This document shows, in pieces, positions 5,970-38,110 of a stretch of 39,374 nt of DNA. Below the pieces are notes generated by a model that saw nothing but the letters and a program-made list of their open reading frames with translations, did not search any database and was not told the DNA's origin. The stretch is taken from contig WFZW01000232.1 of the NCBI GenBank assembly GCA_015489365.1, forward strand, positions 1 through 39,374, read 5' to 3'. The position numbers and the translations under genes are program-made. Position 1 is the stretch's first letter; every line of letters starts with the position of its first letter. This DNA comes from Deltaproteobacteria bacterium (GTDB lineage Bacteria > Desulfobacterota > Dissulfuribacteria > Dissulfuribacterales > QOAL01).

Positions 5970-6036
5970 AAACCTTAATGCAGCCCACATCCCTGGATAG
6001 AAAACATAGTCCTTACCCAGGATATGGTTTCACAAC
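5970..6036 (+). repeat. family A repeat, decayed copy
   Basis: Reads AAACCTTAATGCAGCCCACATCC, split AAACCTTAATG / CAGCCCACATCC, then GAAAACATAG...GGTTTCACAAC, following the family-A order with an internal deletion. The distal hairpin is still possible: ATA-TCC (6006-6012, one bulged G) with GGATAT (6020-6025). It lies about 100 nt upstream of thi4. Confidence 0.6.
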
Positions 6037-6126: not shown

Positions 6127-6180
6127 CTACCGTGAAAACAGGAACTGATCCATGAAAACATGGGCTGAATATAAGCTTCA
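6127..6180 (-). repeat. family A repeat, decayed fragment
   Basis: Contains TACCGTGAAAACAGG, then CCATGAAAACATGGGCTG and AGCTTCA. These correspond to the reversed 3' end and hairpin region of family A, with rearrangement. The rest of the copy is not recognisable. From here to 6326 I see no gene. Confidence 0.35.
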
Positions 6181-6552: not shown

Positions 6553-6640
6553 TTTACCATGAAAATACAGCGCCTATGGGCTGTATCTTCATGTATTGGG
6601 GGTGCGACACCAAGGTACGGGCCGCATATGGAAGTTTAGA
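6553..6640 (-). repeat. family A repeat, full copy abutting the fbp ribosome binding site
   Basis: A near-consensus copy in reverse orientation (TTTACCATGAAAATACAG ... GCATATGGAAGTTTAGA). It ends at the base before AAGGAGGAGG, the fbp Shine-Dalgarno, so it must lie in the fbp leader or contain its promoter. The ATACAG/CTGTAT stem is intact around a changed 10-nt loop (CGCCTATGGG). Confidence 0.92.
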
Positions 6641-7687: not shown

Positions 7688-7775
7688 CTAGAGCTTCGTG
7701 CGGGCCGTAACCCCGTATCGCTTCCCGGAACATGAGGATACGGCCCGTTTCCTTAAAATACATAGGCTAACCGTA
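7688..7775 (+). repeat. family A repeat, decayed copy overlapping a gene start
   Basis: Reads AGAGCTTCGTGCGGGCCGTA, then GGAACATGAGGATACGGCCCG, split GGAACATGAGG / ATACGGCCCG, then TAACCGTAG. This matches family A segment by segment with many substitutions. It overlaps the first codons of the longest reading frame of the downstream histidine phosphatase. Confidence 0.5.
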
Positions 7776-8636: not shown

Positions 8637-8667
8637 TCTCTGGCCTAATCAAATGGATATCAGCCCA

Positions 8668-8790
8668 AACCTTCTGCGGTCCGCATCCCTTGGAGCCGCG
8701 CCCCCAAGGTATGAAAACACATCCGAAATAAGGTCTGTATCTTCATGCCCTGGGGTGCAACCCAGGGAATACGGGCTGCATGAAGGCTTG
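8668..8790 (+). repeat. family A head-to-head composite (forward copy joined to a reversed partial copy)
   Basis: 8668-8742 follows the forward family-A order (AAACCTTCTGCGGTCCG, CCTTGGAGCCGCGCCCCC, ATGAAAACAC, TCTGTATCTTCA). It then runs directly into the reversed 5' half (CTTCATGCCCTGGGGTGC ... ATACGGGCTGCATGAAGG). The whole is an imperfect ~120-bp inverted repeat about 95 nt upstream of htpX. Confidence 0.6.
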
Positions 8791-12493: not shown

Positions 12494-12512
12494 CCGATCA
12501 TAGATTTGATCC

Positions 12513-12595
12513 TAAACTTCCATGCGGCCCGTACCTTGGTGCCGCCCCCCAATACATGAAGATACAGCCCATAGACTCTGTATTTTTATGGTAAA
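12513..12595 (+). repeat. family A repeat, full copy
   Basis: Near-consensus: TAAACTTCCATGCGG, ACCTTGGTGCCGC, CAATACATGAAG, ATACAG - loop - CTGTAT, then TTTTTATGGTAAA. It begins 19 nt after the radical SAM stop codon, in the forward orientation, so it would be transcribed as the 3' end of that operon. Confidence 0.93.
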
Positions 12596-12634: not shown

Positions 12635-12722
12635 TTACCTTAAGAATACAAGGACAATATGGACTGTATCTTAATGCCCTGTGGTTGCAGCATAGAAGAT
12701 ATGGGCCACATGAAAGTTTGAG
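12635..12722 (-). repeat. family A repeat, decayed copy
   Basis: Reverse orientation, facing the copy at 12513: TTACCTTAAGAATACAAGG ... GGACTGTATCTTAATG ... GGGCCACATGAAAGTTTGAG. The ATACA/TGTAT stem is kept although much else has changed. It lies 26 nt upstream of the 285-aa gene. A short GCATGGAAA remnant at 12627-12635 may belong to a further fragment. Confidence 0.7.
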
Positions 12723-13606: not shown

Positions 13607-13630
13607 GAATCCCTTTATCCCCTTTTTATC

Positions 13631-13713
13631 TAAACTTCCATGCGGCCCGTACCTTGGTGCCGCACCCCAATACATGAAGATACAGCCCATAGACTCTGTA
13701 TTTTCACGGTAAA
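13631..13713 (+). repeat. family A repeat, consensus copy
   Basis: The best single example of family A. In order: TAAACTTCCATGCGGCCCGT; ACCTTGGTGCCGCACCCC; AATACATGAAG; ATACAG, 10-nt loop, CTGTAT; TTTTCACGGTAAA. GCGGC (from TGCGGCC) can pair with GCCGC, giving a first hairpin; ATACAG/CTGTAT is the second. It starts 25 nt after the 285-aa gene. Confidence 0.95.
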
Positions 13714-13797
13714 ATGTATTTTTTGATTAGCCATGGATACATAGGGACATACGTGGACAAAGGGTAACATTAAAATACGGGCCGTATGAAAGCTTAG
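13714..13797 (-). repeat. family B repeat fused to a family A end
   Basis: Continues without a break from the family-A copy. TGATTAGCCATGGATACATA then GGGACATACGTGGACAAAGGG, split GGGACATACG / TGGACAAAGGG, is the reversed B core. CCATG (13731-13735) pairs with CGTGG (13752-13756) by one wobble. The last ~28 bases (AATACGGGCCGTATGAAAGC and TTAGG) are the reversed 5' end of family A, as in family-B copy 1. So B elements carry an A-like end. Confidence 0.75.
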
Positions 13798-15629: not shown

Positions 15630-15713
15630 TAAACTTCCATGCAGCCCGTACCTTGGTGCCGCACCCCCAATACATGAAGATACAGCCCTTAAACCCTGTA
15701 TTTTCACGGTAAA
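15630..15713 (+). repeat. family A repeat, full copy
   Basis: TAAACTTCCATGCAGCCCGT, ACCTTGGTGCCGCACCCCC, ATACAG - CCCTTAAACC - CTGTAT, TTTTCACGGTAAA. The loop differs from other copies while the stem does not. It lies midway in the divergent gap between the Memo-family and biotin-ligase-like genes. The CACATAGGGACAG directly after it may be a family-B remnant. The rest of the gap (15517-15842) shows nothing else. Confidence 0.93.
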
Positions 15714-22644: not shown

Positions 22645-22770
22645 ACAATCCTGAAGGTGTCTCCCGAATATGTATTGGAATTTCATGGTTGGGGAGAATC
22701 TGTACAATAAAATGCCCCTATTCACCCGACGCCCGATGCCTTGATAAGGCCCTCGGCCTAGAGAAAAATC

Positions 22771-22851
22771 TAAACTTCCATGCGGCCCACACCTTGGTGC
22801 CGCCCCCAATACATGAAGATACAGCCCATAGACCCTGTATTTTCACGGTAA
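22771..22851 (+). repeat. family A repeat, full copy touching the prfB stop codon
   Basis: TAAACTTCCATGCGGCCCAC, ACCTTGGTGCCGC, ATACAG - CCCATAGACC - CTGTAT, TTTTCACGGTAA; the next base begins the prfB stop codon. It separates prfB from the efflux operon and, read with prfB, is the immediate 3' end of its mRNA in reversed orientation. On that strand the element is followed by TTTAGATTTTTC. Confidence 0.94.
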
Positions 22852-27539: not shown

Positions 27540-27560
27540 CCTTGTGTCCTGGATTCGCAC

Positions 27561-27644
27561 TAAACCTTCATACAGCCCCTGTCCTTGGCGCTGCACCTTT
27601 GGATATGAAAGCACAGCCCTCCTCAGGATGTATCTTCACGGTAA
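27561..27644 (+). repeat. family A repeat, diverged copy running into the next gene
   Basis: TAAACCTTCATACAGCCCCT, TCCTTGGCGCTGCACC, ATGAAAGCACAGCCC, then GATGTATCTTCACGGTAAA. The distal hairpin is reduced to ACA-CC/GG-TGT with mismatches. The only ATG upstream of the binding-protein signal peptide (27605) lies inside this copy. Confidence 0.75.
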
Positions 27645-28606
27645 ATGGACCGGCAAGATGGGACCGTGGTATCCAAGGGTGCCTGCATCTACTCCTATTT
27701 TTCATATGCCTGGCAACCACCTTCATTCCGACCATTGCACACGGGGCAGAACGCGGTAAGGAGCCACGGATAGCAGTGGTCGTTTCATCCCAGATCAGGC
27801 CATATATCCTGGCACTGGATGGGCTGCGTTCCAAATTGGATTACCCGGTTACAGTCTATTATATGACCACCAATCCAGAGATAGTAAAACGTGGACTCGA
27901 ACAACGCAATTTTGATCTTATCGTGGCTATTGGTCCCAATGCGGCACGTCTGGTATGGGAGATCCACAGTCCTCATACAAGCAAAATAGCTCTCATGGTG
28001 CTTGACCTCAAGAATTTCCTAAGGCCCCTGACACCTTGTGGAATCGACCTCAGGATCCCCTTGGTACAGGAGCTACAGGCCATCTCAGCCAGGTTTAAAA
28101 ACAATCAGAGGATAGGTATCCCCTTCAGCCAACCAGAAAACCGGTTGCTCGTAGACCAGGCAATAGGTGCAGCAGATGAATTTAACATCCGGGTGCTTCC
28201 CATCCCCATAGAAAATGTCCACGACGTCTTCCTTGACCTGGCCAGGATGTACAATCAGATCGACATACTATTGTGCATACCAGACAGGATATTCATCTCA
28301 GAGGCAATCGTAACCCACCTCATAAAGGAATGCCTTCTCCATGGTGTTGCAGTAGTGGGGTATAACCATTTCTTTATCGAAAGCGGTGCACTCATGGCAT
28401 TTACCATTGATTATAAACTGGTAGGTACCAAGGGTGCCGAACTTATCCGGCAGATCATGGCCGGTAAATCATGCAGGGTCTATACTCCACCCTTTAAGCT
28501 GGAATGGAATGAGAGGGTATGGAACACCTTGAAAAGGATAAGGTCAGAGGCCATTACCACCCATCCAGGCCCAAGTGATAAACTGTCTGGCAACGGTTTG
28601 GAATGA
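27605..28606 (+). CDS. periplasmic ABC-type substrate-binding protein, ABC_sub_bind family
   Basis: Exported binding protein. After the hydrophobic segment CLHLLLFFICLATTFIPTIA and HGAERG it shows the two-lobe fold: IAVVVSSQIRPYILALDGLR, FDLIVAIGPNAARLVWEI, ALMVLDLKNFL, IGIPFSQPENRLL and VAVVGYNHFFIESGALMAF (the last is typical of the family). No ABC permease or ATPase gene is present. Its stop overlaps the start of the histidine kinase gene by 4 nt. This argues that it presents a ligand to the kinase rather than to a transporter. The start at ATG 27605 (333 aa) lies in a family-A repeat and lacks a good ribosome binding site, so the true N-terminus is uncertain. Confidence 0.8.
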   Translation: MKAQPSSGCIFTVNGPARWDRGIQGCLHLLLFFICLATTFIPTIAHGAERGKEPRIAVVVSSQIRPYILALDGLRSKLDYPVTVYYMTTNPEIVKRGLEQRNFDLIVAIGPNAARLVWEIHSPHTSKIALMVLDLKNFLRPLTPCGIDLRIPLVQELQAISARFKNNQRIGIPFSQPENRLLVDQAIGAADEFNIRVLPIPIENVHDVFLDLARMYNQIDILLCIPDRIFISEAIVTHLIKECLLHGVAVVGYNHFFIESGALMAFTIDYKLVGTKGAELIRQIMAGKSCRVYTPPFKLEWNERVWNTLKRIRSEAITTHPGPSDKLSGNGLE

Positions 28607-31422: not shown

Positions 31423-33467
31423 AACCTTTTAAAAGGCCGATGTACTTCAGAGTCACCTCCTTTCCTCTAGGGGCAATTGCCATTGCAGTGGCGCTCTCCC
31501 TGATCGCCCCTTGGGATTGTCTTGCAGTGGATACCTCACTGCTTTTCGTTGGTGAAGATCTTTCCGTGCTCACAATAGCCTCAAGACACGCAGAGACCCC
31601 GAAACAGGCACCTGCCATCGCCCAGGTCATAACAAGGGAGGAGCTTGAGAAAAATGGCATAAGAACCCTTGGGGAAGCGCTTTCAATACTTCCAGGCTTC
31701 TACCTCTCTCCCAGGGAATGGGGTACGCAGCCCTATCTTAGGGGTCTCCCGGACAGTATCCTGTTTCTCTACGACTCCGTACCATTGACCTCAGACAGTA
31801 CCAAATCCATTCACCCGCTGGATGAAGAACTGTCCCTTGCAGCCATCAAACGAATAGAGGTTATCAGGGGACCAGGTTCAGTATTATGGGGGCCTGACGC
31901 CTTTGCTGGAATAGTCAACATCGTCCCTGAAAGAGGGCGGGATGTCGAGGGCATAAGGCTAAGCGCCAGGGCCGGCACACCAAACCGCGAAAAAAGCCTC
32001 AGCCTCAATTGGGGCAGGGCCACAGGGATATGGGAGGGCTTCCTTTCCCTGACAGCCACCAGCATAAGGCCCCTTGAAAATCGCTATAATGTGGTAAGAT
32101 TTTCCAGCAGTGCCTCCTCCACCCCACTTCCCCCGCAGAAACGTCTTGGGCTTTCCCACGTTGACGATTCAAAATACCTCGAGGCGATATTCAACCTATC
32201 ATGGCAGGATCGGCTCCGCCTTTCCGGGCGATGGTCCAATTCTGAACGAAACTATGTGTTGGGCGAGACGAGTTCCGATCTAAAATGGTCGGGTAAACGA
32301 AAGGCCCCTTTCCGTTTCGTTCGTATCGAGACCCAACGTCCCATGGGACATTATAACCTACGCCTCAACGCCTATTACAACGAACTCAACTATAGGGAAA
32401 AACAGGTGGACATATCATGGCGCCAGAAAAGCCACCTTTCCTATGCGGAACTCCTACTAGACAGGGAGCTGTGGGACGCCAAGGGCATCTTTACCCTGGG
32501 GGCATCGTACCGCTATGACCGGATAACCGGGGCGGTAATATCCAGGACATACCTGCCGGATTTTCTCGAACCTGACAATATCTTCTTTACTCCAACGGTT
32601 AATCAGGAGGATTACAATACTTACCTGACTTCCTATTTTGGCCAGATCAAACGTCACTGGAGGAGCGTGGACGCTTGGTTGGGCCTCAGGTTGGACGACC
32701 ACAGCCAGTACAGCCAGACCATAAGCCACAATCTTGGTCTGAGCTGGCATCCGGGTAGAACCTGGTTCTTGAAGCTCCTCTATGGAACCGCCTTTAGAAC
32801 CCCCTATAACCAGCAACTAATAAATGCCAAGGACCTTGATCCAGAACAGATCGAAAACTTTAGCGCCCAATTTTCCTGGCGAAGGAGCAAGGCCCTGGGG
32901 TTTTCAGTAACGGCCTTCTGGAACAAGATATTTCACCACATCAATGAAGATCCCTATGGTGGTCTTTCAAGGCCAGGGGCAGAGGACATCTATGGGCTCG
33001 AACTCGAAGGAAGCTGGCAGGTAAAGCCATGGCTGCATCTATGGGCAAATGGCAGCCTGTATTCCCAGTATGGAGACAAGGAACGTTACAAGGTACTCAA
33101 TTTCATAGATATCAGCACAATGGAGGAGCACTATTCCTCATGGAAGATACCCTTTGACACAGGACCAAGGAACCTCTTTAATGCTGGTGCCGACTGGAAT
33201 ATCTCCGATCGGCTCAACCTCTCCCTTAGACTCAATTACAGTGGTACCAGGACTTACTACTATAAAAAAGGGACCGTACACTATTGTGCACCTGCCCTGT
33301 GGCTTGTCGATCTTACGGCAACGGCCAAAAACGTGATGTATGATGGCCTGAATCTGAGACTGGCTTTAAAGAATCTTTTTGACAGAAAATATTCTGTACC
33401 AGGCACATACAGCCCGATCAAAGGGGCCCCATTCCAGGCCTATATCAAGATCGATTTCAAATTCTAA
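31419..33467 (+). CDS. TonB-dependent outer-membrane receptor
   Basis: A 682-aa receptor. It has a signal peptide (SFPLGAIAIAVALSLIAPWD CLA, cleaved near AVD), a possible TonB box (DLSVLTIASR), a plug domain (APAIAQVITREELEKNGIRT, TLGEALSILPGFYL, YLRGLPDSILFLYDSVPL, IKRIEVIRGPGSVLWGPDAF) and a beta-barrel ending in KIDFKF with the C-terminal aromatic residue needed for insertion. TonB receptors import siderophores, cobalamin, haem or sugars; the ligand is unknown. The TTG start overlaps the regulator's stop (TTGA) and has GGAG 8 nt upstream; ATG 31440 is an alternative. The stop TAA is the first three bases of a family-A repeat. Confidence 0.94.
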   Translation: MKPFKRPMYFRVTSFPLGAIAIAVALSLIAPWDCLAVDTSLLFVGEDLSVLTIASRHAETPKQAPAIAQVITREELEKNGIRTLGEALSILPGFYLSPREWGTQPYLRGLPDSILFLYDSVPLTSDSTKSIHPLDEELSLAAIKRIEVIRGPGSVLWGPDAFAGIVNIVPERGRDVEGIRLSARAGTPNREKSLSLNWGRATGIWEGFLSLTATSIRPLENRYNVVRFSSSASSTPLPPQKRLGLSHVDDSKYLEAIFNLSWQDRLRLSGRWSNSERNYVLGETSSDLKWSGKRKAPFRFVRIETQRPMGHYNLRLNAYYNELNYREKQVDISWRQKSHLSYAELLLDRELWDAKGIFTLGASYRYDRITGAVISRTYLPDFLEPDNIFFTPTVNQEDYNTYLTSYFGQIKRHWRSVDAWLGLRLDDHSQYSQTISHNLGLSWHPGRTWFLKLLYGTAFRTPYNQQLINAKDLDPEQIENFSAQFSWRRSKALGFSVTAFWNKIFHHINEDPYGGLSRPGAEDIYGLELEGSWQVKPWLHLWANGSLYSQYGDKERYKVLNFIDISTMEEHYSSWKIPFDTGPRNLFNAGADWNISDRLNLSLRLNYSGTRTYYYKKGTVHYCAPALWLVDLTATAKNVMYDGLNLRLALKNLFDRKYSVPGTYSPIKGAPFQAYIKIDFKF

Positions 33468-33548
33468 ACTTCCATGCGGCCCGTACCTTGGTGCCGCACC
33501 CCTAGGCATGAAAACATAGCCCTTATTCAGGGGCTATTTTCACGGTAA
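33465..33548 (+). repeat. family A repeat with compensatory hairpin change; supplies a stop codon
   Basis: TAAACTTCCATGCGG begins at the TAA stop of the TonB receptor gene. The first hairpin region is consensus. In the second, ATAGCCC (33516-33522) pairs with GGGCTAT (33531-33537): seven pairs, with several bases changed on both arms from ATACAG/CTGTAT. It ends TTTTCACGGTAA. Confidence 0.93.
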
Positions 33549-33565
33549 CAATCGGTCTCGAGAGG

Positions 33566-33762
33566 GTACGCAGACGTACTTGGGTAATTCAAGTGCGCGA
33601 TAATGCAGCAGACTCGGTAAGCTTGCGAGCCCCTTGTGGCCTCAAATACCGAATAATTTTGTTGAGATATTGATGCACCTTTTGGGTGCATCAAAGAGGG
33701 CACTGATTTGTCTGTAACCTCTTGTATTCTAAATACAATTACTTATTCAGCACTTTAAGTGC
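33566..33762. other. hairpin-dense non-coding tract
   Basis: Between two facing family-A copies. Perfect inverted repeats in order: GTACG/CGTAC (33566-33579), ACTTG/CAAGT (33578-33594), CGGTA/TACCG (33615-33651), TTGATGCACC/GGTGCATCAA (33670-33694), TTGTATT/AATACAA (33722-33738), GCACTT/AAGTGC (33750-33762). No frame with a ribosome binding site. It lies between convergent genes, so the 10-bp stem could be a bidirectional terminator, although no strong T-run follows on either strand. It could also be a structured RNA. Confidence 0.5.
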
Positions 33763-33841
33763 ATAATCACATACCAGAGTCTTATAGGCTCTATCTTCAT
33801 GTACCGGGGTACAGCACCAGGGTACGGACCGCATGGAAGTT
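33762..33841 (-). repeat. family A repeat, diverged copy next to the TPR gene stop
   Basis: Reverse orientation: CATAATCACATACCAGAG, CTCTATCTTCATGTACC, CACCAGGGTACGGACC, GCATGGAAGTT. Stem AGAG/CTCT replaces ACAG/CTGT. It ends 4 nt before the stop codon of the TPR gene and faces the copy at 33465 across the hairpin-dense tract. Confidence 0.8.
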
Positions 33842-36375: not shown

Positions 36376-36422
36376 ATTTTGTTTCCATGTATGTCCTTGT
36401 GTGCCCATGGCTAATCAAAAAA
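36376..36422 (+). repeat. family B intergenic repeat, copy 4
   Basis: ATTTTGTTTCCATGTATGTCC, split ATTTTGTTTCC / ATGTATGTCC, then TTGTGTGCCCATGGCTAATC and AAAAAACG. CCATG (36385-36389) pairs perfectly with CATGG (36406-36410) around 16 nt. Confidence 0.75.
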
Positions 36423-36458: not shown

Positions 36459-36470
36459 AGGATAACCTCC

Positions 36471-36556
36471 TAAACTTCCATGCGGCCCGTACCTTGGTGC
36501 CGCACCCCAAGTGCATGAAGATACAGCCTATATGGGTACTGTATTTTCACGGTAAA
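36471..36556 (+). repeat. family A repeat, full copy
   Basis: TAAACTTCCATGCGGCCCGT, ACCTTGGTGCCGCACCCC, ATACAG - 12-nt loop - CTGTAT, TTTTCACGGTAAA. The loop is longer and can add an inner CC/GG pair. It ends 12 bp before the palindrome upstream of the sigma-54 promoter. Confidence 0.93.
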
Positions 36557-37994: not shown

Positions 37995-38050
37995 AAGGCC
38001 ATGCTACCCAAAAATTACCGCGCATTCCTACAACATTTACATCCTGGATA

Positions 38051-38110
38051 GGGCTGTATCTTCATGTATTGGGGGGCGGCACCAAGGTACGGGCCGCATG
38101 GAAGTTTAGA
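38051..38110 (-). repeat. family A repeat, truncated copy
   Basis: Reverse orientation; the plus strand reads GGGCTGTATCTTCATG, GGCACCAAGGTACGGGCCGC, ATGGAAGTTTAGA. The 3' end of the element, including one arm of the second hairpin and the TTTTCACGGTAAA end, is missing. It lies between the convergent ParA-LC7 and 207-aa genes. Confidence 0.88.

Follow-up and report, generated by a model that had tools for sequence, protein, structure and literature searches.

Between the genes of the window, the 39,374-nucleotide stretch of DNA analysed here (contig C232 of an uncultured marine bacterium), there are nine copies that are full or nearly so, and six to seven recognisable diverged stretches, of an approximately 83 bp repeat, family A, with the sharp ends TAAACTTCC...CACGGTAA. 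The reference copy, AAAC...GGTAA with its flanking T/A, is at 13630–13713 (+) and is absent from the corresponding gap in the sister species. Recent copies are present at 165–250 (−), at 6553–6639 (−), directly upstream of an FBPase-like gene, at 12512–12595 (+), at 15630–15713 (+), and at 22770–22851 (+), directly at the prfB stop codon. The copy at 33464–33548 (+) gives a TonB-dependent receptor gene its stop codon and is altered on both sides of its second hairpin, that at 36470–36556 (+) has a longer second hairpin, ATATGGGT, and that at 38038–38110 (−) has a truncated 3' end. The stop codon of the receptor gene, TAA (33465–33467), is the first triplet of the copy, while the gene of the sister species ends with TAG in the same place.

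Older copies lie among these. A diverged copy at 12635–12719 (−) faces the 12512 copy and a truncated, diverged one at 33775–33841 (−) faces the 33464 copy; an old diverged copy at 27560–27645 (+) has an empty site in the sister species, and decayed partial copies are at 5970–6033 (+) and 7689–7751 (+). At 8667–8789 there is an old palindromic form of approximately 125 bp in which two left halves, 8667–8747 (+) and 8712–8789 (−), are face to face. All nine of the full or truncated copies claimed in the sequence-only reading of this DNA were found where it had placed them. Of its nine diverged copies, those at 5970, 7688, 8668, 12635, 27561, and 33762 (33775–33841 by profile) were recovered, while those at 6127, 8551, and 36274 fall below the profile threshold.

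Two other repeats share these intergenic regions. A second family, a MITE of approximately 254 bp with the terminal repeats CCCGGATTATGCA...TGCATAATYYGGG, is at 33562–33768 in the window and also in stretches L163–L181 and L255; the sister species has about 40 copies and this genome few, decayed ones. The copy in the window lies between two facing copies of family A, and the whole block of approximately 378 bp is absent from the sister species. A third repeat, around TTGATTAGCCATGGACACACAAGGACATACATGGACAAAGGGC, is at 1955–2001, 13723–13767, and 36383–36418, has 28 matches in approximately 0.9 Mb, and often adjoins family A. Where left halves of family A are 120–380 bp apart, ten convergent pairs, two of which had been chosen for their convergence, stand against one divergent pair; examples are at 8667–8789 and 13629–13797 in the window and at 986–1153 in stretch L116. 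The convergent pairs are clearly in excess, as if palindromic composite forms of the element also spread.

The element is laid out as AAACTTCCA-TGCGGC-N12-GCCGCA-CCCCAATACA-TGAAGATACAG-N10-CTGTATTTTCA-CGGTAA, its approximately 83 bp including the flanking T/A, and it is too short for a transposase, with no ORF within it. There is a palindrome near each terminus. In the reference copy, hairpin 1 (13641–13664, +) pairs TGCGGC (13641–13646) with GCCGCA (13659–13664) and hairpin 2 (13675–13706, +) pairs TGAAGATACAG (13675–13685) with CTGTATTTTCA (13696–13706); the two are unlike each other. The fixed ends and the GCGGC/GCCGC hairpin had been described in just this form from the letters, and the ATACAG/CTGTAT hairpin proved longer than was claimed, with an 11 bp stem. 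Folded as single-stranded DNA, the reference copy forms both hairpins (z = −3.7 for the + strand and −2.2 for the other). The palindromes are kept in 69 diverse copies, including those from the sister species, in which 87% of pair cells show pairing (86% in hairpin 1 and 88% in hairpin 2) compared with 33–58% when one arm is slid. One pair of hairpin 1 has changed from G-C to A-U in 17 sequences, other double changes are few, and pairs changed on both sides are not above shuffles, so that the structure is conserved with modest covariation, a weak covariation signal. RNAalifold predicted no structure from the diverse alignment, probably through misaligned loops, and the named hairpins were counted instead.

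A genome-wide search, one of the checks put forward with the sequence-only reading, finds copies far beyond the window. In the source assembly of 2.49 Mb (239 contigs, judged 99% complete) a strict 16-base pattern of the left end, with at most one mismatch, has at least 225 matches and the reversed pattern has 0; the same strict pattern has 61 matches in the sister species. Since 40 of the stretches making up the approximately 0.9 Mb examined were picked for holding copies, densities were taken from 178 kb of unselected contigs only. These contain 32 profile matches, approximately 1 per 5.6 kb, from which the whole genome is estimated to hold roughly 450 copies or more, decayed ones counted. 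The family accounts for roughly 2% of its DNA. The window is richer than these contigs, at approximately 1 copy per 2.5 kb. Among 60 relatives, family A was found in this genus only, with one match in a sister genus; one further match of 23 bases in a distant genome is probably due to chance. Neither Rfam, at gathering and at permissive thresholds, nor a plasmid-collection search gave a match; the sequence-only reading, too, could assign the element to no named family.

It had also been claimed that the copies are essentially only between genes, and this holds. Few are inside called ORFs, mostly as over-extensions of start codons or at ORF ends, and the element accounts for various false starts and stops of genes, such as the TAA stop at 33465. 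Its density per kb of gap is equal between tandem, divergent, and convergent gene pairs, which suggests a parasite filtered only by the damage it does to coding sequences and argues against both a terminator or mRNA role and REP-like behaviour.

The sister species (G001) is collinear over most of the window, with about 80–90% DNA identity. Seven well-preserved copies, at 6553, 12512, 13630, 15630, 22770, 33464, and, truncated, 38038, are missing from its matching gaps, a comparison that leaves out the copies at 165 and 36470, and the old copy at 27560 is likewise missing. Recent copies agree exactly in their ends and lie in unrelated flanking sequence, and copies may be arranged in tandem or nested. 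Identities to the master sequence form a bimodal distribution, reaching at least 90% in 77 of the 153 full copies and lying at 60–79% in most of the other 76. This confirms family A as a genuine, recently active, lineage-specific mobile repeat, and both the mixture of ages and the continued spread suggested from the window alone are borne out, the latter by gains at orthologous gaps. A few decayed copies appear to be common to both species (8718 and 18991 of stretch L104 against L253, as read from coordinates). Given these and the recent copies that the sister species lacks, the family would be older than the species split, with a new burst after it.

The 6553 copy has the clearest empty site, where the complementary strand of the sister species reads CAGACTCAATTTA/GAAAGGAGG, the slash marking the junction, and that of the window reads CAGACCTCGATTTA/CCATGAAAATAC...GGAAGTTTA/GAAAGGAGG; the short form of the filled site on the putative active strand is CAGACCTCGATTTA/CCATG...GAAGTTTA/GAAAGGAGG. 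This is the only very clean site, the empty sites of 22770, 27560, and 33464 matching less perfectly, but all four usable sites suggest that the element inserts beside a TTTA/TTA of the other strand. Read on this complementary strand, 46 of 52 recent copies have TTTA as their left junction, and in the reference copy the probable target with the first bases of the left end, TTTA/CCG, is at 13707–13713 (−). The variants ATTA, GTTA, and CTTA seen at the left junction of these 52 copies are not mirrored at the other end, and because this fourth base does not co-vary between the ends there is no 4 bp target duplication. Nor do the flanks of family A copies match over 5 bp or more at a rate above chance. 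A fixed 3 bp TTA duplication and no duplication at all would give the same junctions here. Tandem copies have one common junction, GTTTACC, as is expected if the TTTA at the tip of one copy serves as the target of the next.

It had been suggested that the element might be a MITE using TA sites with duplication of the TA. Conservation is lower at the left T than in the interior, the two ends show no co-varying duplication, and AAACTTCC and, reverse-complemented from the 3' side, TTTACCGTG do not form a pair of inverted repeats, which rules out a MITE of this kind. Indeed, the lack of evident terminal inverted repeats had been remarked on in the same sequence-only reading, where it counts against that suggestion, and it is this absence that excludes a MITE and favours a reading akin to IS200 and to the palindrome-associated transposable elements (PATE). 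A related alternative is a miniature element of the DDE type whose terminal repeats are very short or have diverged, and which is moved by a double-strand cut-and-paste transposase with a fixed 3 bp TTA/TAA duplication. A strictly fixed duplication would also leave TAA at each end of the element and a single TAA in the empty site, and palindromic left-left forms with true inverted ends do exist (8667–8789 in the window, and in contig C205). Such an element nevertheless seems unlikely, as AAACTTCC and TTTACCGTG form no inverted pair, the fourth base shows no co-variation, and the double hairpin on the same strand is left unexplained. The approximately 254 bp MITE of the sister genome serves as a positive control in this respect, giving a normal duplication of 5–6 bp in 8 of 12 copies in the same kind of test.

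Same-strand subterminal hairpins, no terminal repeats, no duplication, and a fixed 5' tetranucleotide are together read as transposition of the IS200/IS605 type. On balance, family A is probably a non-autonomous PATE-like element that is moved as a single strand by an HUH (Y1, IS200/IS605-type) enzyme. The active strand would be the complement of that taken in the sequence-only reading, namely TTTA/CCGTGAAAATACAG-loop-CTGTATCTTC...TGCGGC-loop-GCCGCATGGAAGTTTA/, immediately 3' of TTTA. By analogy with IS200/IS605, the enzyme, supplied in trans, would recognise both hairpins as single-stranded DNA and cut after the TTTA of the left flank and after the TTTA of the right tip, the predicted circle junction of the excised form being GGAAGTTTA/CCGTGAAAATAC. 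The strand would then be joined 3' of a TTTA where DNA is exposed as a single strand, probably on the lagging-strand template, and the target would be left unduplicated. Hairpin binding, guide and target tetranucleotides, and a preference for the lagging-strand template have all been described for IS200/IS605 (PMC6006769).

The orientation of the copies is consistent with this. Of 202 copies, 128 oppose the GC skew (128:74, contig-clustered p = 3e-4), which would place the active strand mostly on the G-rich strand, the lagging-strand-template direction. This bias is modest and is correlated with gene direction (p = 0.01), and recent copies alone are not significant (p = 0.08). There is also a preference for G immediately after TTTA at the 3' junction, in 40 of the 52 recent copies, which the single-strand model does not need. 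The ends of IS605 elements are usually alike. The unlike hairpins of family A, together with the extra G and the absence of IS605 enzyme genes, count against the single-strand mechanism, which is the best reading rather than a proven one.

Pfam models found no IS200/IS605 tnpA, no TnpB, and no Y2 (IS91-type) transposase in this genome or that of the sister species, and the Y1 genes of other relatives have no ends related to family A beside them. A transposase gene with matching ends, which had been named as a thing to look for, was not found in either genome. The only HUH/Y1 gene found in this genome encodes a 309-aa protein (G000:C122:12290-13216) that matches Y1_Tnp and, below the cutoff, the NCBI REP-associated tyrosine transposase. 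It is read as a TIRYT, TnpA-REP subclass 2.1, because its homologues in several relatives share the ends GGGGACAGGCRAAT...ATTTGCCTGTCCCC, which fit the GGGGWSAS motif that marks TIRYT genes (PMC3733652) and subclass 2.1 of PMC6006769. Because tnpA, TnpB, and Y2 are all missing and the sole HUH gene has ends of its own, the enzyme can be assigned to family A only by inference.

There are family A sequences on both sides of the TIRYT gene within approximately 330 bp; one copy is inserted into the 3' terminal palindrome of the TIRYT (GGGGACAGGCAAA...TTTGCCTGTCCCC) and an old palindrome of the family A type is upstream. The TIRYT homologues have a patchy distribution among the relatives, where a genome has as many as three copies or fragments. 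Family A might be a REP/REPIN-like element that is the normal substrate of this resident RAYT-class enzyme, as enzymes of this kind move REPs, which are hairpin repeats found between genes (PMC6006769, PMC3116915). This is decidedly doubtful. The gene and all of its homologues with visible ends, in several relatives, carry terminal repeats of the GGGGACAGGC type, unrelated to family A; no homologue elsewhere has family A flanks, and homologues are present in other genera that lack family A. Two-sided flanking is expected by chance for 4% of genes, and given this and the shared ends, proximity does not identify the gene as the cognate enzyme. Furthermore, no REP-like repeats have been found for TIRYT or subclass 2.1 (PMC3733652, PMC6006769), the feet of the hairpins on the putative active strand are CCG(T) and GGGG/CATGG, with no GTAG or GTGG foot, and, unlike REPs (PMC3733652), family A is not reduced in divergent gaps.

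For an element moved as a single strand in trans, the enzyme would be either the TIRYT, or an IS605 partner that has since disappeared or is encoded in DNA absent from the assembly, or a different enzyme. That the amplification of an unrelated two-hairpin element is driven in trans by the TIRYT, or else by a so far undescribed single-strand enzyme in a genome without IS200/IS605, is put forward tentatively, as rather less than probable. No autonomous element was found between inverted copies, the pair in contig C75 enclosing an ordinary ferredoxin-type gene and those in C205 and C32 no gene, and no transposon was found at orphan family A half-elements. Family A seems to be parasitic, using a borrowed enzyme that works on single-stranded DNA.

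Two stable hairpins whose structure is kept in diverged copies might instead mark a non-mobile RNA or DNA element under selection, such as a terminator, an mRNA stabiliser, or a regulator, but this is highly improbable given recent copies that are absent from orthologous sister gaps, unrelated flanks, orientation and gap type untied to transcription, and tandem or nested copies, though single copies may later have acquired effects.

Among known systems, Correia (NEMIS), ERIC, and other MITEs are likewise short intergenic repeats in hundreds of copies, but family A has no terminal inverted repeats, no TA duplication, and no Rfam match. It resembles REP/REPIN with RAYT in its abundant intergenic hairpins, its size, and the presence of one such HUH tyrosine transposase in the genome, but has no GTAG/GTGG foot, is not an inverted REP pair, and is not depleted in divergent gaps, and the TIRYT (subclass 2.1) here carries ends of its own, unrelated to family A. 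With IS200/IS605 (IS608, ISDra2) it shares subterminal hairpins on the same strand, insertion 3' of a fixed T-rich tetranucleotide, and the orientation bias expected for insertion into the lagging-strand template. It differs in having no tnpA or tnpB inside, TTTA with a preferred G next to it, and unlike hairpins, and is at most a derivative of IS200/IS605 rather than a member.

The closest likeness is to PATE, described in Haloquadratum walsbyi (PMC3119063), with one PATE-like sequence in Halanaerobium hydrogeniformans (PMC7290912). Both PATE and family A have palindromes near both ends, no terminal inverted repeats, and no target duplication, are too short for a transposase, and have many intergenic copies that differ in presence between strains or species. 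Family A differs in being bacterial, shorter (83 bp), present in several hundred copies, and provided with two unlike hairpins. The palindromes of PATE are related to those of IS605-type transposons of the host, whereas no such transposon was found in this genome or the sister genome; 'PATE-like' is used here because that relationship, which was not seen for family A, is an observation from Haloquadratum and not a strict criterion. The kind of element is therefore already known (PMC3119063), and what is new is family A itself, its scale in a bacterium, and its missing partner. As far as the literature searched shows, PATE-like elements are on record from one archaeon and, with a lone example, from one bacterium. 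With hundreds of copies, a recent burst, empty sites in a sister species, and one candidate HUH enzyme, family A provides a testable case for the spread of transposase-free single-strand elements and for the role of TIRYT proteins.
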